From Antedon mediterranea (lineage: Eukaryota > Echinodermata > Crinoidea > Comatulida > Antedonidae), in assembly GCF_964355755.1 (NCBI RefSeq), contig NC_092674.1, positions 22,160,001 to 22,224,000 of the forward strand: a stretch of DNA of 64,000 bases, in the 5' to 3' direction. The position numbers and the translations under genes were made by a program. Shown piece after piece: positions 316 through 27,219 of this stretch. The number at the start of each line of letters is the position of its first letter. Positions within the stretch are counted from its first letter, which is position 1. Under the pieces are notes generated by a model, which did not search any database, was not told the DNA's origin, and saw nothing but the letters and a program-made list of their open reading frames with translations.

Positions 316-1092
316 CCGGCAGCTTTGTTGCCAAAGTCTTTAGTCCATCTAAAAAGAAGGTAGCAACATGCTTGTAATAATGTTATGATAAACTATAGGC
401 TTATTTATATATTAAAATTGTTAATATACGCATGAGCAGCAAATAGCAAAATTGATTTAAATAATAGATAAAGTTGAATTAGCCCATATTGGTAACTCGA
501 TTATTTTACATCAGGAGAAAAAAAAGTGTTGTATAGGCCTACCTGTTATCTTTTTGTCTGCTTTTCCGCAAAGAAGGTTAGCAAACTCCACCAACTGTCC
601 TCTCGTTTGTAAGAATTCCTCTTTTTCCAGATATAAAACGACGTCCCAAATATCTTTTATTGTCTCTTCATATTTTGATAGGTCATGATAGGCCCGTGCC
701 TCACGGTAATCATCATCTGTAGTGTTCTTAAGTCCTTTATAAAAGGCATGCCGATACGGTAATACAGAGGCGCCATCTTTCAAGCATTGTGTTTTATTCT
801 CTGCTTCAGCGGCGTAATCAGTCAATAATTGTTTAGCCTTTTTAGATTTTGTCAGTTCAGCAATGTCCATAAATATTTTCAACTTGGTAGATGAAACAGA
901 ATCTTGCCGTTCCATTTCATTAAAAATATCTAGTGGCTTCACATTCTCCTTGGAAAGAACATCGATTTCTTCAACAGCACCAGACACAAGAAATATTAAC
1001 TCCTTCATAAAGCGCCCTGTGAACAATTTACCGAATTCTTTTTTAAGATGCTTGTATTTTTTATTATCACCAGATGTAGCCTTAGAAGCCAT
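316..1092 (-). CDS. DED-domain protein, 5' coding exons (partial, runs off left edge)
   Basis: Minus-strand gene, third member of the local DED family. Coding exon 1 is 1092-543 (ATG at 1092, 183 codons plus one base) and ends at a CAG|gtaggc donor. The next exon, 348-316, is exactly 33 nt with a ctttttag acceptor and a gtatg donor. It enters and leaves in phase 1 and reads D-GLKTLATKLP. The start is chosen because a tttgttag acceptor ends 4 nt upstream of this ATG, as in the two paralogues; the longer in-frame extension would be intron. Residues about 12-95 look like a death effector domain (FGKLFTG, PLDIFNEM, TKSKKAKQLL). A second helical region (YEETIKDIWDVVLYLE, TRGQLVEFANLL) follows. Further exons, possibly including a TIR domain, would lie left of the window. 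DED assignment is by fold-level resemblance; function is unknown. Confidence 0.75.
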
Positions 1093-1096
1093 AGTT

Positions 1097-1619
1097 CTAA
1101 CAAAGAAATACAATAGATATATATATATAAATCTTAAGCACAGAATAACAATATTAACAATAGCAACCAATTAACATAAAATAATACTTCCATCTATTAT
1201 ACGAATACTAAAACTAGTGCAAATAGGAGGGCGAAAAGTATTTTATCTTCAATAAGATTACAACAATAATAAATGTTGTATTCTCTCTTAGATTAATAAA
1301 TCTGAGATACCCAAACGTCATTGCGTTGGAAGTTCACCAAACTCAACAAACTACTGAAATGTGTCTTTTTTGCCGCCAAATTACACAGACGAACGGTAAC
1401 GGTAAACAGAAAACCGCGTAGCTTGTCCAACGTAGAATCTGTATCTATCCAAAGCGGAAATCGACGGTCCGCTTCACGTTGTGTAAATAGGCATAAGGAA
1501 TGACATAGATTATATATATTTTTATATATTTTATATAGTTTATTATGGTATGATGATTTATCAAATGATATGTTTTCAGTTGTAGTATTAATTTATTTTG
1601 AAATTGAGATTCTTTACAC
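1097..1619. other. Non-coding stretch upstream of the left DED exon
   Basis: AT-rich DNA holding the presumed 5'UTR intron of the left DED gene (acceptor at 1097). From about 1535 it holds sequence that recurs near 4335-4400 (tttattatggta...tttatca...gtagtattaatttatt), probably LINE-derived. I see no supported gene. Confidence 0.4.
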
Positions 1620-1812
1620 TTTGATATTAACAAGACTAATGCTAATATGTTTCCCATTATAGATAAACCTACTCGTATAAAAACTAACTCATCTACCATA
1701 ATTGATCATATTATTTACTCAAACACCGTTAATCCCAGTTTTAAGTCCGAAATCTTGTTTTGTGATTTAACGGACCATCTTCCTATTTTTTTGCATTTCG
1801 TCCAAAGATAAA
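1620..1812 (+). pseudogene. LINE endonuclease fragment
   Basis: A frame open from about 1620 to the stop at 1810 reads DINKTNANMFPIIDKPTR, then SSTIIDHIIYSN and CDLTDHLPIF. This is the C-terminal part of the apurinic-type endonuclease of CR1/Jockey-like non-LTR retrotransposons (the family pattern is F-P-L-I-N-K-P-T-R, then T-L-I-D-H-I, then S-D-H-F-P). The reading breaks by frameshifts and stops after 1812. It is a dead fragment. Confidence 0.7.
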
Positions 1813-2344
1813 CCACTCACAAATAGCCTGCCTAAGTATATATATAAAAGATCAATTATTGACAACTCTATGAGTTCTTTATTAACAGAGATTTCATCTA
1901 CTGATTGGACTGAGATAACATCTATAAATGATGTTGACTGAGCTTATAATTTAATTAGTTCATACAGAGCATAAAATCTCCTAAACTTTAAATGCTGCCA
2001 TCTACAATTTTAGTAACTCTATTGCAATGAAATTTGACTCATTAGCATAATTTTCTTTGTTCTATACAAAAAATCACGCTTAGAAAGCTGTAAAATCAAT
2101 TCTGATTGGTCTAACAGAGAAGCAGCTTTTTTTCTATGAAATCCCTAAGCCAATAGGCCTATACCTGGCTAAGCCTCTCCTGTCAGCCAATCAGTGTAGA
2201 TATTGTTGGATGGTAATTGAAATGGACATTAAAGATACACCATGGATGTGTCCATAAGAAGAAGCTATTAAAGCCCAAAACAACATTCCATATGGATATG
2301 AAGAAGCTCTTGTTGTTTTTTAAAATGTTCACAAAAGTATTATA

Positions 2345-3065
2345 AAAACTGATGAAAAAGTTATTGCTGTATCGATTTACTCCTATTTTGTAAACATGCT
2401 CGGCTGGGGAATAGATGATGCCCTGAAACATACAAACGCAATTGTTGACAGAGATGTCAAGACAATAAGAAGATGGCGAGACAAATTGTATTCAAATAAT
2501 GGTAAATATTAATATTTATTTTTTCGTATATTATTTTTTATGCTGTAATTCAATAGTGTGAAAACCATGAATTTCAAAATAATTCTGTACCGGTATATTA
2601 TTTGCGTTGCAGTATTATATATATATTTTTTTGTTTTTATAGGAAATGTTGAAGAATCGCAAACTGGAAAGTATGAGCGACAGTTTATATTTAATGGTGA
2701 AGATCTGAGATATAAAGCGCTGAAATTCATCCGTGACAATGCTTGCACTCAAAGGCCAGCCGAATATGAGAGTAGCAGATTTCAGAAAATGGATCAACAC
2801 TGAGCTTTTGACATCAACTCACTTGCCACCTTTGTTTCCCAAATCAATTTTAATTGAAACAGCTAGCTCGAGTTTGGTTACAGCAATTAGGATTTTCATA
2901 TACAGATAAAAAAAAATGGGGACTTACACCGATGGACATGAAAGAGAAGATGTTCGAGAATGCCGAAAAACATTTATAGATCAAATTTCAGATTTGGAAA
3001 CCAAACACCTACCGCCCCCTAAATGTAATGTAATACAGTGGAAGTACTTTCCATTTTACATGCTT
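2345..3065 (+). pseudogene. Decayed transposase-like gene with a retained intron
   Basis: Pieces of one protein can be read across frameshifts. They are VNMLGWGIDDALKHTNAIVD and VKTIRRWRDKLY (to about 2501), then an intron-like gap gtaaat...tttatag (2502-2641), then GKYERQFIFNGEDLRYKALK and FIRDNACT. After a frameshift near 2750 come NMRVADFRKWINTELL and THLPPLFPKSI. After further shifts come LQQLGFSYTDKKK and GTYTDGHEREDVRECRKTF. The order and the Y-x-D-G-H-E-R-x-D-V signature recall a family of eukaryotic DDE-type transposases; I recognise the pattern but cannot name the superfamily with certainty. At least three frameshifts make it non-functional. Confidence 0.55.
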
Positions 3066-3244
3066 TCTACAAAGAATTTTCTTTAGCCATGTGATTTAAG
3101 TGTTTTAACTTGAGTAGAAAAACCTGGCATATTAATGCCACAATGCCACCCTCAACTATTTTACCAATTAATGTTTTTATTTTTATTTTTCCATTCCATT
3201 TTGACAACACTTTTAGGCACATCAATTGTAGATGTATTGTATAT

Positions 3245-3880
3245 TAATAATAATTAATTAATAATGGTGCTAAAGCTAAACTTTTTAAAACTGTGACTTT
3301 TCCAAAAAGTGTAAGATTCCTTGCTTTCCAAGGGTTTAATACTTTTTCAAGGTTTGTTAATTTTTTAACCCAGTTTAATTCTTTAAATAATTCATTATCA
3401 TATCCTAAGTATATTCATAAGATTTTTATAGGATCAGTAACCCATTATATATTAAATGGGTTATCTATTTTTACCAGTCCACATGGCACTAGTTTTGTTC
3501 TTGTTTAATATGTTATAATCTATGGTTAGCAGAGTAATAGGACGCCAATTTTCTAGTAGACTTTTATCCCCTTTCTTGTATAACAGATTAATAACTTATT
3601 TCGCTATTTAAATAGCATTCATTAAAAACATCACATATTAAATATTTGAGATCTTCACAAAAACAGTTAAACCATCATACCCTGGGGCTTTATTCAATTT
3701 CATATGTTGTAATGCTTCCCTGCATTTATGCACTGTGATTAAGCCTTCACAGCTTGTTTTTTCTTCATTTGTTAAACTATTTACATTTGAATGATCTAGG
3801 TAGTCACTTATTTTTGTTTGGGAGATTCCCTTATTAGCATATAGTTTGTTAAAGAATCTTATTTCTTCACATATCATTTC
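3245..3880 (-). pseudogene. L1/Tx1-like LINE reverse transcriptase fragment
   Basis: The minus strand from 3877 encodes IRFFNKLYANKG, ITVHKCREALQHMKLNKAPG and YDGLT, the N-terminal part of an L1-clade reverse transcriptase (the NKAPGxDGL motif). Towards 3250, after stops and an internal deletion, pieces like NLEKVLNPWKARNLTLFGKV and LKSLALAPLL match the post-RT segment of the same clade. Several stops and frameshifts show a dead copy. Confidence 0.65.
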
Positions 3881-5140
3881 CTTTGGTTTTTCAATAATTT
3901 ACCTTTATTTTTTTAATACTTTTTATATGCTTTTTTGATTCATTACTTTTTCTAAACCTAATAATTAATTTATGCTACGCTCACCCTCCTTCTACTTGAG
4001 ATGTTATTCAAAAATACATTATGACGGTTTTGAGTGATCTGTTACACAGAATTCAGCTCCAATATACAGAATAGCTGTATATTTAACACTACTATATCCT
4101 CGAATATGGTCATTATTTTATTTATTTATTAAGAATCAAGATGCACACCTCACAAAACTTAAAAAACTACTAAAAATCCATCCAAATTTACATAGACGAG
4201 CACTATTGTTTGTTTCATTTGTTTTTATATCGTTTAGTTTTAAGTGGTAGTTGTATATTTGTTTCGTTTAAAATATAAAATCTGTTTATTTTGGTGTGAA
4301 GAATTCTTACATCATTTCCAAATTTATTTTTCTAAAATAGTTTATTATGGTAGGATGTTTTATCAAAGGATGTTGCCATTGTAGTATTAATTTATTTATA
4401 TTTGTGATATTAATATCTTTTTTAGAATCCATAGGTAGTTTTGGAACCCGATAGTGAAACTCTAAAGTACTACAGTAGTTTGTGCAGTGATAGCGACAAG
4501 AATGTTTCCCTTAACAAATATAGAAGCAGGATTATTGATTTTTACATTTGGATTTTGAACTTTGAACTCACTCACACATACACTTTCCATTGTCTTTCGT
4601 TACCACGAATATGACTAATGTTAGAAATAACAAAACAGAAAAATGTAATTAAAAGTGTCGGTTGTTTTTTAGTTTAGTTTATCTATCGCCAACTGTACAA
4701 GATGAATATTTTTTTCTGTAATGCCATAGTTCATGTAAATACAATTTCAATCAGAAGTATTATGTACAGAATCAATTAAAAACAAAGTAATCTGATGCTG
4801 AGTTTGAAACACGGATTGAGATCGCAAAATCAATATATTTAAAAGTAATATGAATAATTATATAACATTATATCGGTATCGGTTTCATAAGAGTACTTGT
4901 ATACTTTAAGATTCTAAGGTTTCTCAGAACCTGTTTCGTAGTAGTTATCAATTTATGTTTCGGGTTTTTTTTTTATAATTTATGTGAGCCACATTTGTAG
5001 TGCCCTTCTCACCAACCCATGTCTCCATTAAACCACAATGAATTGCGATATTTTCAATCTATTAATTCTTTTCTTACTGTTGATGCACCCGCATAGTGAC
5101 GCAGTCAAACTGAAACAGCCACAAGAAATGGGCCGTTTTT
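3881..5140. other. AT-rich intergenic stretch
   Basis: No supported gene. Sequence near 4335-4400 is a diverged copy of the 1541-1610 block. Long A/T runs are present. Nothing else is recognised. Confidence 0.4.
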
Positions 5141-15770: not shown

Positions 15771-18700
15771 TTATTCTTTCGGTGTTCTACGTTGCAAGAA
15801 TTGTATAATTCTATCTACACTTGCCGGTTGATATTCATGACTCCATCTGTAAGATAGGGGGAAAGCGGATAAAATAGAAATTATAACTGAGATAGCATTA
15901 AAGCAAATGAACTACTGAATAAATGAACTTACTTAACAGCATTGTATTTGGTGATTCCTCTCATGTCTTCTGGTAGTGCCTCCATCTTTGGCCATTTGAA
16001 ATCAGGAGAAGTAACAGGAACAATGTTACAGTTAGTTTCCATGGCTGTTACTACCTCCTACAACAAATCATAAATGAGATTATGAATGTCTTTTTAAAAA
16101 AATGATTTTTTTGTACTGATTGTATCGATGAACACCATCAGCATCAAATTGACACATAGCGTTGGAAGTGCAGGCCCATGTTGTGTAATGTAATTTGAAA
16201 GGACGAAACAAAGCACACAGTACAGGATAGCAATAAAAAGCTTGAATAAAACTTTTATAATCAGTAAATGTATTTTCGCATAAGGATTTTTATTTGTTGT
16301 GCCAAAAAACCGATTATATGGAAAATCACACAAGACATAACTACAATACATTTAAGCCTCAATATTTGTTCTTTTGTCAAAATTGGCAAAGGATATGCAT
16401 ACCTTGTGAATCCAATCGTTCTGATCATTGTCACCCATACATCTATCCAATGCATTAATTGACAGAACAATGATAAAGTTGCGTGCACTCCGAATACTAG
16501 TTAGAAGGTTTGTGTCGAATCTGCCTGCCCCTAAATTTTCTACATCCATGAAAACGGTGAAGCCTTTGTCTTTCATCTTTTCTTTAAGAAGACTACATAA
16601 GAGAGAACAATTTATGTAATATAAAACATTGTACAGTATTATAGATATAAAAATGAATACGTCGTTGTTGTTGCAAACAACCAACTTTGTTCATGTCTGT
16701 CTACACTATCAAACAAATGTGATGTACCTATATATGGACATGATGATGTCATATCACTACCATATTTGAGCATATCACTACCATATTTGGCCATATCACA
16801 CTGTTTTTGTCAAATTAGTTTGATAGTTTAGACAGATCTTAAGATTACGACGGATACTCCTTTGATGATCCTTATGATTAAGAAAGTGCAGCAGGTTTAT
16901 TTATTGTAAAAACGATATGAATTAAGTCATTTCTGTGTACAGAAATTCAGATCATAATTGCAAAATATTAAACATTTAATACCTTGCTAACCCTGATCCA
17001 TTGGATCGTCTATAGCTGATGAAGACATCAAGAGTCTTTTGTGGGTTTCCATCTTCCATGTCTTGTGGTAAAGGCTGTTCGTCTAGTTTTATTAATAAAA
17101 CAATATCTATGATGATGGTGTTTTTTTAAATTGCAAAATTAAATTCTCATCCGCCAGAATATCTATAGATTCTTTCAAGTGACAACATGCCACAATAGTA
17201 TTGGTACGGAGGATTTTTCAAAACAAGAAGTAGTTTTATATAATTATTTGTATCTCTGTTGAAATCTTTCCATAAACCAATTACATTATTATTAACAATG
17301 CTAATGGTATCCATAGTAACAAGAAATGTGAATAATGATGTTAAAGGTCACCTGGTCCAGACGAGATGCCTTGCTGTATCGGAACCAAGTCTACCAGTTT
17401 GTCTAGAAATATACGAATAAACTATACGTTGATAATCTATCCATAATAAAAGGTAATTAGTTATCCGCACTCGGCGGATAACTACGTGTTGTTACTTATT
17501 TGCCTTAGCAAGTATCATAGAAACATTACTAAGAGGAATTATATCCTAATATAATATCATATTAATGTCAGATAACAAATTAAATTACATAAATAACACA
17601 TTAATTGTTACTACTACCGTTATTATATGACTGTAACAAAATCGTATACTTGAATTTTATAATCCAACCAACCAAAACAATTAAATATATATTATCCCCT
17701 GAAAATAACATTTTTGGTTGAATATGCCATTTTAATTTTAATGTCAAATAGTCACATAATATTTATTATTCACTTTGACCAAAAAAAAAAATGGATCGAA
17801 AAAAAAAATTACTTTAAAAAATTATAAGTTACAGCCACAAATACAACAATTTTTTCCAGTCAATAGGGGGTTTGGTTGAAATTGAAAATCATTTTTGCTT
17901 GTTAAAACTGAAAATGGCACATTCGAATTCAATTAGTTTTATTGGTTTATTTGACTTGATTTGAATATTAATATTACGTCTTCATTATCATTTCATTTTA
18001 TTTTCAAAGAACCTATTTCTTCAAACACAAGTGTATCATTAATATTATCATGGCAATTAATAATGGTTATTTTTATAATAATGTATTATTTGTATCCTTT
18101 TCTTTCAAAATCGTCGATTTGTTTACGTTTCATTATTTGAAGCATATTATTTTGGTGTCTAATAATACATTATGCAATATTATAATATATTTGATTATTA
18201 GCAATTATTTATAGTATAATTATAATACATATTGATAAAGTACCGTAAGCATAACCAGACTTGACTACTTACCTCTTCCTTCACATTCACCTAAAAAACA
18301 AACCAAAACTGGTGTTAACATGCTTATACCTGCTATTACGAATAGCACTAGTTTTATTAGATAAACAGCCTTAAACAGTAAAACTCTGTCTACACTTATT
18401 TCAGATTCATGTTCACACAACAACTATAAAAAAACATTTTGTTAATTGGAAAGTAAAGTAGCAATAAATTTACAATTGCATGAAAGGAAATCGTAATATT
18501 GTTAGTTTTATAGTAAACGAGTTTCAACGTTTTTCCGATAGGAAATGTACATACTTTTTCCATGTATTACCAACTTTGCCAACCCATCTAAAATGTAAAA
18601 AAAAATATACAAAAGAAAAATTACTGTAGTGTTTTATGTGTAAAGACGTCGAATATTGACTGTATCGCCCCATACGACAATATTTGCCTAGTGTAAAGAC

Positions 18701-21407
18701 GTCGAATATTGACTGCATCGCCCCATACGACAATATTTGCCTAGTGTAGTATCACAAGGTAGTGTGTATAACATGCGGTGCTTCCATAGTGAATTGAAAA
18801 AAAGGTCATGAAACACCACAAAAGTATTGAAGATAATCAATGAGTATGTTTTTAAATGCTTGTACGTAAATGTGTTCTTTTATCATGCTTTCTCCATGCT
18901 TATTATTAACAGTGTTTAAACTGTAATTGTTCTGTAATCCGAATTCCATGTTATTTATAATGATTTAAATTTGCTAGAATTATGTGGCGAATGGAATGTC
19001 TATTTTTTTTTTACCATAATTATTTTTAATGAGGGTAATCCATCCAGCAATTTCTGATCATTAGATACCCTCAGAGGTTCAAGATGCTCTACATAAACAA
19101 AGCCTTTTTACAAGTCTTTGGGAGTGGAGTTGTTTTGTCCTTCTGACATATGACGGGACTTGAGCCCAGGGTTGGCATTTATCAATATTTGCTTATATTT
19201 TTGCTTAAGGTGAAATATTTAAGAAGTGCTTAAGCAAATAACTTAATCTTATTATCAAACCCGCAGAAAAATTGTTACTTTGCACATGCGCTAAATTAAA
19301 CTCTAGAGGGCAGCAAATTATGTCTTAAGACGAAAAATGCTTGCTTACGTTTGCGTATTAACTTTTTTCTCTTACCGATGGCGGCGCTATAACATTTTAT
19401 GTCGGTATTTTCACTCCCAACAAGAGAGGGCGCATTCTGGCTTTTATTACTTAAAATAGAGAAAGAGCAGAACAGTCGGAAATACATACGAAAATCATTC
19501 GCTCTAAACTTAAACAAAGAATATATATCACAAGAATGAGTATTCCGCGATTTTCCCTGTAACAGTAATATTGTCCATGTGGTAGGGCGCCGCCATAAGT
19601 GTGGATGTATCTGGGATGTATACAACTTTTTGTGACGGTTTCAATAATCAAAGGCTAGACCACCGGTAGTATTTTCATGATAAAAAATGTTATCAACTAC
19701 ATGCCAACATCATGTTAAATACTATTTGGATATTTAATTGTTCGTTTTATGCAATTTATTTAGTAAAAACTGCCGTATAAACAGTTTGCTTTATCAACCG
19801 GGCGCTACGATAGCGTGACCGGGCGTGTTGGTGTTTACGCGTTTTCACGAAGGATTGTTTAATAATATTCCTATATTTAACTTGTTTCTGGTAAAACAAA
19901 TAAATGTTAATAACATTTAACATTTTGTCCTATTAATAACATGTATTTTATACTAATTTATATCATAAAAACAATACTTAATTTACCGGGCGTAGAGTAG
20001 TACCCGGCAATGGTAAAGAATAGGCCGTGCTGAGTAACGATTCATTGATTTTTGGTGTTGCTGCGTTAGGCCTTTTTTGTGAACTAACTTAGCATGTTAG
20101 TAAATAATTGTCTGTAAAAGTGAATGTACACTAGTTTGTTAATAAATATGTATTATAAAATAGTTTACAATTGCAAAAACTATTATCATAATTCTATTTA
20201 ATGTGACATGTATAATATCTATTAAATCAAGTCTTATTTAGTATGTATACATCCGCCCTTATGAGGGCGGGCATCACTCACTGGAGCTCTCTGTTACAAA
20301 TTTCTCATGCAAAAATCGCGGAATACTCATTCTTGTGATATATATTCTTTGACTTAAATCAAATCAACATTTATTTATTTTTATCAATGACAGCGACCCT
20401 TGGCAGCCGATACAGTTTTCTAAAAGTTAGTCAATTGGGTAGTAGTAGTACCTATCCCGAAAATATTAGTTTTGCTCGTCCAATTTCTAGGCCATCTTTA
20501 TGAAGATCGATATCATTATTTTAGCGTCCGTAGTACAGCGGAAAACGCACTAGCGTAGCCTTTCCGAATGTTCAATGTTTCCGGCCTAGCGCGCTCGCGT
20601 TGTCAAAAAAGAATGTTTCTGTTGCAGAAATGAGATAAGACGAAATTTTTCATCTTAAGGCAGGGTGTTATTCGTCTTAGATTTAAGACAAAATTAAGCA
20701 AATTTTTTTGCTTAGATATATTGATAAATCTGACTTAGGCAAAATCAAGGATTTAAGGCAAAGTTAAGACCATTTTTTGGCTAAGCAAGTTTGATCAATC
20801 CGGCACTCTTGGAGTGGTAACCACCAATCCCCAACTCCACTACATTGGCCTATATTAGATTATTCAATGTTTTCTTACTTGTTAGTATGTTTTCTGCTCC
20901 TTTATTAAGAAGAGAAGCAAATTTTATGAGCTGATCTCGAGTTTGTAATTCGTTTTTCACTTCTTGTAAGTAGGCTACTAAGTCCCACATATCTTGAATT
21001 GTTCTCTTCTGATGACCTAAACGATAAAAGGCTAGTGCCACATCAACATTTCTGATCCCCGTGCTCTTTATTGCCAAATAGAATGGAATTCTATAGGGTT
21101 TTAAACCGGTCCCACTTTTTAAATACTGATCGGGAAAATTAGACAGCAATTCCCGGAGCTTTACCAATCTTGTAACTTGAGCTATTTCATCCAACATTTT
21201 CAAATGAGTAGGTGAGATAAGAGGTTTGTTATTTTCATCTAAAGTATCTTCTAAATGATTTAAGTAACCATGTGGAGTTGTACTTGAGTCAATCTGATCA
21301 AGATAGTCAAACAATAAAAATTTCAGCAGGCTCTGGTATTGCCCATCAAAACATTGTCCGAACTTGTGTACGAACGTTGGATAATCCATTTTGTTAGCGT
21401 CAGCCAT
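15771..21407 (-). CDS. DED plus SARM1-type TIR domain protein (373 aa, eight coding exons)
   Basis: Coding exons on the minus strand are 21407-20879, 18587-18555, 18290-18273, 17402-17352, 17082-16983, 16592-16403, 16057-15933 and 15846-15771. All have GT-AG borders and the sum is 1122 nt, with frame kept to a TAA stop. A ttttag acceptor lies 4 nt before the ATG, so a 5'UTR intron is likely. Residues about 12-92 resemble a death effector domain (LLKFLLFDYL, TRLVKLRELLSNF). Residues 104-172 form a second helical region of no family I know. Residues 177-211 are a linker made of three small phase-1 exons. Residues 229-373 are a TIR domain of SARM1 type: DVFISYRR at 229-236, FMDVENLGAG, SARNFIIVLSINALDRCM, W304-I-H-K-E308, and WSHEYQ near the end. 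Known SARM1 TIRs cleave NAD+ with the equivalent glutamate, so NADase activity is inferred. The likely role is immune or cell-death signalling. Confidence 0.85.
16693..16840. mobile_element. MITE family 2, copy 1 (intron of the DED-TIR gene)
   Basis: Ends read GTCTGTCTACACTATCAAA and its inverted complement TTTGATAGTTTAGACAGAT. The inside has the CCATATATGGACA-like and CATATCACTACCATATTTG blocks shared with copies at 41478-41622 and 43343-43476. The 24-bp CATATCACTACCATATTTG unit is doubled here. Confidence 0.65.
17456..17490. repeat. Hairpin repeat (GTTATCCGC type)
   Basis: GTTATCCGC and GCGGATAAC form 9-bp perfect arms around a short loop. The same arm sequences bound the element at 60561-62110. 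The copy lies in the intron between the 17402 and 18273 exons of the DED-TIR gene. Confidence 0.55.
17683..17900. mobile_element. TTAA MITE family 1, diverged copy
   Basis: Begins TTAA-ATATATATTATCCCC. It shares GTTGAATATGCCATTTTAA and CACTTTGACCAAAAA with the copy at 9549-9894. It is intronic and non-coding. Confidence 0.5.
18638..18743. repeat. Tandem duplication of a 53-bp unit
   Basis: Two adjacent 53-bp units (18638-18690, 18691-18743) differ at one base. Each contains GACGTCGAATATTGACTG and CCCCATACGACAATATTTGC. They lie directly upstream of the first small exon (18587) of the DED-TIR gene, inside its first intron. Confidence 0.85.
19172..20806. mobile_element. Foldback element in intron 1 of the DED-TIR gene
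   Basis: Outer ends pair as GGCATTTATCAATATTTGCTT against the complement of AGCAAGTTTGATCAATCCGG. Inner arms 19518-19566 and 20303-20352 are near-perfect inverted copies (TATATATCACAAGAATGAGT, ATTCCGCGATTTT). The interior has repeated ACCGGGCG motifs (19798-19990) and a CCGCCCT-TATG-AGGGCGG hairpin (20252-20269). No coding region is seen. Confidence 0.6.
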
Positions 21408-24975: not shown

Positions 24976-27219
24976 CATGGGAGACACATCGGCAATACTT
25001 GCATCCTCCGATTGCGCTTAACTTTCCATCGGTGATTCTTCATCTGAAGTAAAATTAAAACTTATAATTATGAATGCAATTATAAAAATGCATATCATAT
25101 GAGACTAAAGACAGAGAGAACAGAGATGTTGCATGATCATTTCTGCAACATGAATTAATCTCACGGAATGATGCAGTATCATTACGAATAGAGTTTCGCT
25201 ATTATAAATCACAATCAAATGTTTAATATCTTCATTATCATTGTTATTATTTTCTTTAATTTGTTATCACATTTCAGAGTATGACCACCATCGTCATTCT
25301 AAATAATAATTAATATAATCATAATGACTACTATATTTTGTTATCATCTTCATTGTAGCCTTTCTGATATCCCTTAGTAGTCCGTTTAACTTGTATGAGG
25401 ACTATTAAACGTTGATTTTACATCGTAGTTATTCTTCTGATTGTAATAATTAAAAAAATGTATACATAATTCTACTTATACGTCTATATGCCATACCTGT
25501 GAGGTTTAAGTGCTGCACCAATGCTAAAATATAAAAACAAATAGAAAGTTTATTCTTATAACCTTAGTCCAAATGTCTGTAATGAGTTGCTTTACAAATA
25601 TGCTTTTATAAGTCTGTTTCCTTATTTCTTATTCTAAATTTTATGAAAATTAGCAAGGAGGGAACATTAGGTTGCCTTAATATTGTTTGTATCTATATGA
25701 CTAAAATGTAAAAAAAAATCCTATTTTGTTAGTGTTGAGATATCGAATTTGGCAAGAAGTCTATAATAAATCCATAGGCCTATTCAATTGTTTACTATTT
25801 ATAATCTTACCTGGTTGTACCATAACCAAATCTACCAGTTTATCTAAAATAAAAACGCAATTAGCAGTTAATGGTTTCTCGACATGTTTAATCAAATAAT
25901 AGATTACGTATTCGCATTTTTAAATCACTGTGGTACGGAACAAACAATGTTGGTCTTCCAACTTTAGCATTCGATGGTGGCATTCCATGTGTATACAGTT
26001 AAACTTCAAACAAGTCTAAGGAAAGTTTGAATTCCTAAATTAATGTCTACATGAAGAACATCTACGTTTGTAAATTATGTGCAAAACACGATACTTGGTC
26101 TACTGCACCTACCTGTCTTCCGACGAACATTGTCAAAAGTTCTATCTAGATTTTAAAAAACAATACAAAGGTTCATTTAATGAAATTGTGTTTACATTTA
26201 ACGGTGTCATGTTTGCACATTTGTTATGAGATAATAATATTTTACAGATTTGTATAAAAGGGTGCTGCAATGTTTGCACAAAATTTTGTTATCTCTGCAC
26301 ATTTGAGCAAAATTAGGTGCTAAAATGTAACTTTGTGCTCATTTCAAGGCTCATTGTATAGTTGACAGTTTTTGTGATTTTTTCAATTCGATTATACTTT
26401 TATTTCGGATTCACGTCATAGAATATAGGCCTACTCTACATACCTTCATTTGTAGTTACTAAAACACTGAGTGCATCTGGAAAGAAAATAAAACAACAAA
26501 ACAATTATAATAAATATTTTAACTGCAGTTTAATTGGCTATTTAGTTATGTATGTATTTACATTAAATCAAAAATGTAAAATGCACTAGTGATAACTATT
26601 ATTTTTAGTATTCAGTTATGCTGTATTAGATTATGAAAGAAGTACAATAGTTTATTACTCTTTGTCATAACATATACCTGTTATTGTTGCTTTTGCTCTT
26701 CCGCAAAGGTGATCAGCAAATGTATTCAGTTGTTCTCGAGTGGCTAAATCTTTCTCTTTTTCCAGATACAGCACTATGTCCCAGATATCTTTTATATATG
26801 GTATCTTCATATTTTGTCAGGTCATGATAGGCACGTGCATTAAGGAAATCATCAGGTGTTGTGTCCGTCAAAGCTTTATAGAGTGAATGACGATACGGCA
26901 GTACACCTCTGCCATTTGCCAGATACCAATCATTTTCTTCGGCGTACTTCTTGAGTAAATTCGTTGCCATTTTACATTCTGTCAGTCTAGCAATGTCCAT
27001 GAACATCTTTAATTCATCTGGTGCCACAAAACCTTTCCATGCCAATTCGTTGAAAAAATCTAAAGGCCTTACCTTCTCCTTGGTAAGGGTATCGATATTT
27101 ACAGTGCCAGTTAACAGAAATTTTAACTTTTTCATATTGGTCCCCGTAAAATATTTGCCGAATGCATTTATAAGCTTCATATATTTTGGATCATCGGGAT
27201 ACATGTTAACAACAGACAT
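24976..27219 (-). pseudogene. DED-domain gene copy with frameshift (paralogue of the DED-TIR gene)
   Basis: First coding exon 27219-26678, with a ttatag acceptor 1 nt before the ATG as in the paralogues. A DED-like region is read at residues about 12-92 (MKKLKFLLTG, PLDFFNELAW, TECKMATNLLKKY). At 26791-26800 an extra TATA relative to the paralogues shifts the frame. Past it, the other frame restores DIWD-like and TREQL-like text up to the CAG|gtatat donor. Four small phase-1 exons follow: 26476-26444, 26145-26113 and 25843-25811 (33 nt each) and 25523-25497 (27 nt). They read D-ALSVLVTTNE, D-RTFDNVRRKT, D-KLVDLVMVQP and A-LVQHLNLT. A 68-nt exon, 25043-24976, gives DEESPMES and then TAA. No TIR exons belong clearly to this copy. 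It could be a pseudogene, a short DED-only gene with a sequencing indel, or an alternative 5' end. Confidence 0.65.

Follow-up and report, generated by a model that had tools for sequence, protein, structure and literature searches.

A predicted gene of the crinoid Antedon mediterranea joining a caspase-8-type DED to a SARM1-type TIR domain

The window analyzed here is a stretch of 64,000 nucleotides of the Antedon mediterranea genome. Seven exons on its minus strand, between positions 21407 and 15771, join in frame into a predicted protein of 367 residues; all introns have GT–AG borders, and the chain contains no inner stop codons. An earlier note on this DNA had proposed that a DED and a SARM1-type TIR domain are encoded here by one gene. 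The analysis described below confirms this observation at the level of sequence, with good support coming from the matches of the TIR part, a profile of the DED family, and a linker exon. The exons are as follows.

20879–21407, minus strand: exon 1, 529 nt, phase 1 donor; carries the ATG and a probable tandem DED, linked to caspase-8 by its family profile
18555–18587, minus strand: exon 2 (GLAKLVIHGK), 33 nt, phase 1-1; no more than probable, resembling GLKTLVIQK of the related locus L003
17352–17402, minus strand: exon 3, 51 nt, phase 1-1 (KLVDLVPIQQGISSGP); linker exon common to neighboring DED-caspase genes
16983–17082, minus strand: exon 4, TIR exon T1 (DVFISYRR); matches the SARM1 TIR exon on contig C3 and starts further in
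16403–16592, minus strand: exon 5, TIR exon T2 (BB loop, SARNFIIVLS, WIHK)
15933–16057, minus strand: exon 6, TIR exon T3, whose first codon is the catalytic Glu
15771–15846, minus strand: exon 7, TIR exon T4 (WSHEYQ) and the stop codon
18273–18290, minus strand: optional 18-nt exon of an alternative eight-exon chain, in frame and with GT–AG borders; unsupported, without a convincing counterpart in relatives

The chain proposed previously had eight exons and 373 residues. It was reproduced in frame, and its catalytic Glu was indeed found at position 308 (position 302 in the 367-residue chain), but the additional 18-nt exon did not hold up: its best scores in four related loci, namely L002, L003, L004, and a DED copy near 26 kb in the window (the 26-kb copy), were 14 to 17, compared with 36 for the exon against itself. 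We prefer the seven-exon chain, noting that the reading frame alone leaves the middle exons unfixed and that several in-frame sets are possible. A further candidate exon, 18423–18330, was rejected, as it had no convincing counterpart in the same four relatives. The motifs DVFISYRR, SARNFIIVLS, WIHKE, and KWSHEYQ are present where the earlier note had placed them, in four exons with GT–AG borders. At the other end of the gene, a 3′ splice site (AG) lies 4 nt before the ATG of exon 1 in the target as well as in L002, L003, and L004, and the phase-1 donor after the DED has the same place in all four.

Intron 1 harbors an 837-bp MITE-like element (window positions 19515–20351), whose terminal inverted repeats are perfect over 40 nt, and, at 18638–18743, two head-to-tail copies of a 53-nt unit that are 98% identical. 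A search of the window with Rfam at gathering scores gave no match.

When compared with the PDB, the target TIR matched SARM1 with an E value of 1e-50, and all 19 distinct sequences with E ≤ 0.01 were SARM1 or TIR-1, which agrees with the previous assignment of this domain to the SARM1 class rather than to the Toll/MyD88 TIRs. In Pfam, TIR_2 passed the cut-off and TIR stayed under it. Across the 354 Mb of the whole genome, only seven SARM1-like TIR exon matches were found, four being those of the target on contig C5 and three residing on contig C3. The target TIR is 62.3% identical to the C3 TIR (99/159 aligned positions) and 53.6% identical to human SARM1 (81/151), while the C3 TIR and human SARM1 share 66.2% (100/151). 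As read by eye, the three introns inside the TIR have the same places in the C5 and C3 genes, which points to a genomic copy and not a retrocopy; the first TIR exon starts further in on C5 than on C3, and both are phase 1. In a phylogenetic tree, the target, the C3 TIR, and that of human SARM1 formed a group apart from 16 of the 69 TIR_2 matches listed for this genome (support 100/100). Within this group, C3 paired with human at 93/77; the bootstrap had not settled, so that the order among the three SARM1-type TIRs is not secure. Comparison of the target and C3 TIRs over 142 codons gave dN and dS values of 0.20 and 0.68 (NG86), 0.20 and 0.41 (LWL85), and 0.21 and 0.69 (YN00), corresponding to dN/dS ratios of 0.30 by NG86 and 0.50 by LWL85. 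Identities at codon positions 1, 2, and 3 were 81.7, 80.3, and 68.3%, the third position being the least conserved.

The gene on C3 has an ARM exon, with SARM1 and TIR-1 as its top PDB matches (best E value, 2e-86), which is the single ARM match genome-wide, and two SAM exons (Pfam SAM_2; SARM1 and TIR-1 in the PDB). With these ARM and SAM exons, it can be taken as the ordinary SARM1 of Antedon mediterranea. Queries made from its ARM and SAM parts gave only chance-level matches in the window (best E value, 0.13).

The domain search suggested with the earlier note had a split outcome: the TIR half matched SARM1 and TIR_2, and the DED exon taken alone had no Pfam match and, using phmmer against the PDB, zero matches at E ≤ 10; its identity became apparent through a profile of its family. 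This family has at least 150 matches in the genome, the target included (150 of 236 candidates scored), and Pfam DED has at least 90 genome matches at E ≤ 0.001 (150 of 360 candidates scored), some of which come from other DED genes. Of 32 family members that were aligned, 28 matched Pfam DED (PF01335) at E ≤ 0.1 and four, including the target, did not; no death-domain family was among the Pfam matches listed for the family. The 32-member profile retrieved caspase-8 from the PDB at 5e-7, and all 13 sequences with E ≤ 0.01 were caspase-8 or cFLIP. Aligned at full length with the tandem DED of caspase-8, the profile covered 153 columns, and none of 100 shuffles did as well.

To what extent exon 1 holds two DEDs can be judged from the two halves of the profile. 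The first half matched both DED1 and DED2 of caspase-8, with 0/100 shuffles as good in each case. The second half matched DED2 weakly (1/100 shuffles; hhalign probability, 10.5) and did not match DED1 (43/100 shuffles). These results indicate that a first DED in exon 1 is secure and that a second, diverged DED in tandem is probable. AlphaFold models of the DED exon were all-helical but poor, both with three window rows and the target first (pLDDT 51.8) and with four window rows and the exon at 541–1092 first (pLDDT 43.9). The latter exon and the one at 26676–27195 are the other members of the family in the window, and their DED matches are under the Pfam cut-off.

As to the relatives of the DED half, a tree of the 32 members grouped the target with L002, L003, and L004 (100/99), all four loci being located in a region of about 142 kb of C5. 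In two of them, the DED ORF is followed downstream by a caspase ORF on the same strand, at a distance of 5.5 kb in L003 (E value, 1.2e-44) and of 6.5 kb in L004 (6.5e-45). Based on this order of ORFs and on a common linker exon, we infer that DED and caspase form one gene in both loci. The linker exon is represented in the target by exon 3 (KLVDLVPIQQG), which is phase 1-1, free of stops, and located only about 270 nt upstream of T1. Its counterparts after the DED are KLFDLIPVHE in L003, KLVDLLPAKK in L004, and KLVDLVMVQPGKIIN in the 26-kb copy, and shuffled peptides scored as well in 3, 1, and 2 of 2000 trials, respectively; in the 4.65 kb of L002 that were examined, there was no match (1009/2000). 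Being common to the DED-caspase neighbors and close to T1, this exon ties the two halves into one gene. Exon 2 is similar to a peptide in L003 (79/2000 shuffles as good) and not significantly to L004, L002, or the 26-kb copy (964, 936, and 1214 of 2000), and it is for this reason considered only probable. The caspase sequences of L003 and L004 had no match in the 64-kb window at E ≤ 0.05.

The 26-kb copy itself (window positions 26676–27195, minus strand) is frameshifted near 26796 and perhaps decaying, with the linker KLVDLVMVQPG kept downstream. More broadly, many of the at least 150 family matches are on C4 (approximately 16–19.7 Mb and 30–36 Mb), with others on C9, C10, C5, and C3. The pattern suggests a lineage expansion in which some members are followed by caspase or NACHT ORFs: in ten DED flanks, caspase was found in at least two (L003 and L004) and NACHT in at least one (L011). 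L011 is probably a DED-NACHT gene: its DED exon is followed, after about 1.3 kb and on the same strand, by a 948-residue ORF at 1177–4020 (minus strand; NACHT E value, 3.5e-19). Other flanks contain different neighbors. In L009, a DED exon is followed after about 1.4 kb by a MAM-domain ORF on the same strand (442–2751, plus strand; E value, 1.2e-14), and a further pair of DED-like ORFs was seen by eye at 4208–4728; L005 has a second DED-like ORF nearby. In L002, which corresponds to the window copy at 541–1092, the DED exon is followed by a 579-residue ORF at 1627–3363 (minus strand; DUF1759 E value, 4e-11), which we take to be a retroelement gag; another ORF of 230 residues at 173–862 had no Pfam match above the cut-off. 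No other same-strand DED-then-TIR pair within approximately 20 kb was seen by eye among the matches listed, a search that split TIR exons can escape, as those of the target did.

Whether the TIR could act as an NADase was assessed by comparing its active site with that of human SARM1. At 19 of 21 hand-picked TIR positions the target equals the human protein, and the human residues that are kept include Y568, R569, R570, D594, E596, G601, F603, W638, H640, E642, and W662. The two changes are both in the BB loop, K597N and E599G in human numbering. SARM1 orthologs belong to the group 24 TIRs, in which, according to a passage of PMC7075850, position 2 of the BB loop is R or K and counts as important for catalysis. 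The BB loop of the target, ENLGAG, fits the E(R/K)LEAG of group 24 at four of six positions, whereas its EE loop, HEYQ, and its WIHKE motif agree with the HD/EYQ and with the Trp, His, and catalytic Glu of WxHKE given for that group (PMC7075850). The variant K597E of SARM1 is cited in a part of PMC9381744 as a weaker dominant negative, and that paper also gives human variants that reduce activity, including ones at positions S572, I593, and I643. At these three positions, the target has N, M, and V, which differ from the residues tested in that source; the C3 SARM1 also differs from human at 572 and 643. With its catalytic Glu kept and two BB-loop positions changed, the target TIR is likely, though not assured, to have NADase activity.

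The anatomy of the gene and the kinship of both halves can be read from the DNA itself, and neither an ARM, a SAM, nor a caspase domain is detectable in the window. The explanation we favor, with slightly better than even confidence, is an exon-shuffled gene, that is, a duplicated DED-caspase gene carrying SARM1 TIR exons instead of caspase exons, in which DED assembly would trigger NAD+ cleavage. In a duplicate of a caspase-8-like DED-caspase gene, the DED exon and one or more linker exons would have been retained, and the last four exons of the genome's own SARM1, encoding the TIR, would have replaced the caspase exons as a genomic copy, with a phase-1 intron as the joint; the shuffling would have happened within one lineage. 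One transcript would then span the DED and TIR exons, and the DEDs of its product may come together with one another or join DED proteins of the caspase-8/FADD kind. TIR crowding in such an assembly would turn on NAD+ cleavage, taking the place of the SAM ring of SARM1. As there is no ARM domain, there would be no NMN/NAD+ gate, and the trigger would be a DED signal similar to that of death receptors or NLRs.

This mechanism, of which the earlier note had given the outline, fits known biochemistry and is weakened by the two BB-loop changes. Forced dimerization activates NAD+ cleavage by SARM1 TIRs, and in SARM1 itself the SAM ring crowds the TIRs and the ARM keeps them apart, as stated in passages of PMC7688312. 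An induced phase transition raises SARM1 activity in vitro by more than 2000-fold (PMC8266388, in the passage concerned), and passages of PMC12133306 deal with tandem-DED filaments of caspase-8 and with TIR NADases alike as signaling driven by assembly. Since SARM1 TIRs need crowding and tandem DEDs form filaments, a DED module could supply the crowding. The further-reaching proposal, that a caspase-8-like initiator has swapped its protease for the NADase of SARM1 and that DED assemblies kill by NAD+ depletion, we put forward tentatively, at a little under even chances. If this is true, the output of SARM1 would be obtained without its metabolic sensor, and caspase inhibitors would not stop cell death by this route.

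Because of the changed BB-loop and variant positions, an inhibitor or adaptor role is a serious rival and the main one, albeit one that we consider unlikely overall. In that case, the fusion would be real and its TIR weak or dead, and the product would serve as a brake or an adaptor in the manner of cFLIP, capping DED assemblies or poisoning SARM1 via TIR–TIR contacts. cFLIP consists of a tandem DED and an inactive caspase-like domain, and its DEDs are among the matches of our DED profile. A loss of activity would also be consistent with K597N, E599G, and the differences at 572, 593, and 643, with the citation of K597E as dominant-negative in SARM1 (a part of PMC9381744), and with a similarity to human SARM1 that is lower for the target than for the C3 TIR. 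On the other hand, the target keeps the catalytic E642 and 18 more of the 21 positions checked, and the dN/dS ratio of approximately 0.3 to 0.5 relative to C3 opposes free decay, a ratio that does not separate an enzyme from an inhibitor.

The remaining explanations question the gene rather than its activity. One of them, which we regard as improbable, assumes two overlapping genes without a fusion, one being DED-only or DED-linker and the other TIR-only, the latter with a possible Met start in MEDGNPQKTLDVF. Several features would allow this: the reading frame of exon 1 can continue to a stop nine codons past its donor, T1 has this in-frame Met before the TIR core, and exons 1 and 2 are separated by 2.3 kb and the inserted element. 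Yet the promoter of a TIR-only gene would need to sit within the DED gene, and both the shared placement of the phase-1 donor in the target and three relatives and the stop-free, phase 1-1 linker exon of DED-caspase type just ahead of T1 argue for a continuous chain. A decaying pseudogene or an unexpressed chimera is, in our judgment, very improbable, given seven open exons without inner stops, GT–AG introns throughout, and a TIR in which the third codon positions are the least conserved and dN/dS is 0.30 (NG86) or 0.50 (LWL85); for such a decay it can be said that lineage-specific duplicates frequently die and that the adjacent DED copy at 26676–27195 is frameshifted.

If the preferred reading of an exon-shuffled gene with DED-triggered NAD+ cleavage is correct, a SARM1 TIR under the control of a caspase-8-type DED would show that NAD+ depletion can be rewired to apoptotic signaling, and the protein would provide a natural test of whether any crowding device can activate a SARM1 TIR. 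If made and active, it would couple two separate cell-death machineries in a single protein. The donor gene, the recipient kin, and the linker exon can all be seen in the same genome, and the locus would also document how a protease was swapped for an NADase by exon shuffling. The earlier note knew of no characterized protein with such a layout, and the open-licence literature, as covered by titles, abstract openings, and text passages, likewise gave no DED/SARM1-TIR protein; for DED-TIR there was no paper, and for TIR-DED only an unrelated one. Neither of these two strings occurs in the text of PMC2575513, figures and supplements aside, and the word DED is absent from the main text of PMC7075850. 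The parts of the predicted protein are thus known ones, in a pairing that we did not find described.

Compared with SARM1/TIR-1, an NAD+ hydrolase with the layout ARM-SAM-SAM-TIR, the target has a TIR that is 53.6% identical to human and 62.3% identical to C3, with TIR introns in common with the latter and with the catalytic Glu, HEYQ, and WxHKE in place. It differs in its DED in front, in that neither ARM nor SAM was detected in the window, in the two BB-loop changes, and in that a full SARM1 exists separately on C3. SARM1-type TIRs occur with SAM and/or ARM, typically as one gene per genome, according to a passage of PMC7075850. The likeness to caspase-8, other DED-caspase genes, and cFLIP comprises the DED exon, the placement of the 5′ splice site, and the linker exon, with L003 and L004 as close kin; unlike caspase-8, the target has no detected caspase domain and carries a TIR in its place. 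MyD88 likewise combines a death-fold domain and a TIR in one protein, but it has a death domain where the target has a caspase-8-type DED, and the target TIR is of the SARM1 class. A death fold and a TIR also occur together in the CARD-TIR MyD88-like proteins of Placozoa (described in a passage of PMC6321704), from which the target likewise differs in its caspase-8-type DED and its TIR of the SARM1 class. Finally, the direct-connector genes of amphioxus include DED-NACHT and TIR-SAM combinations, as noted in the text of PMC2575513; the former resembles the target in joining a DED to another immune module, and L011 in the present genome also has a DED followed by a NACHT.
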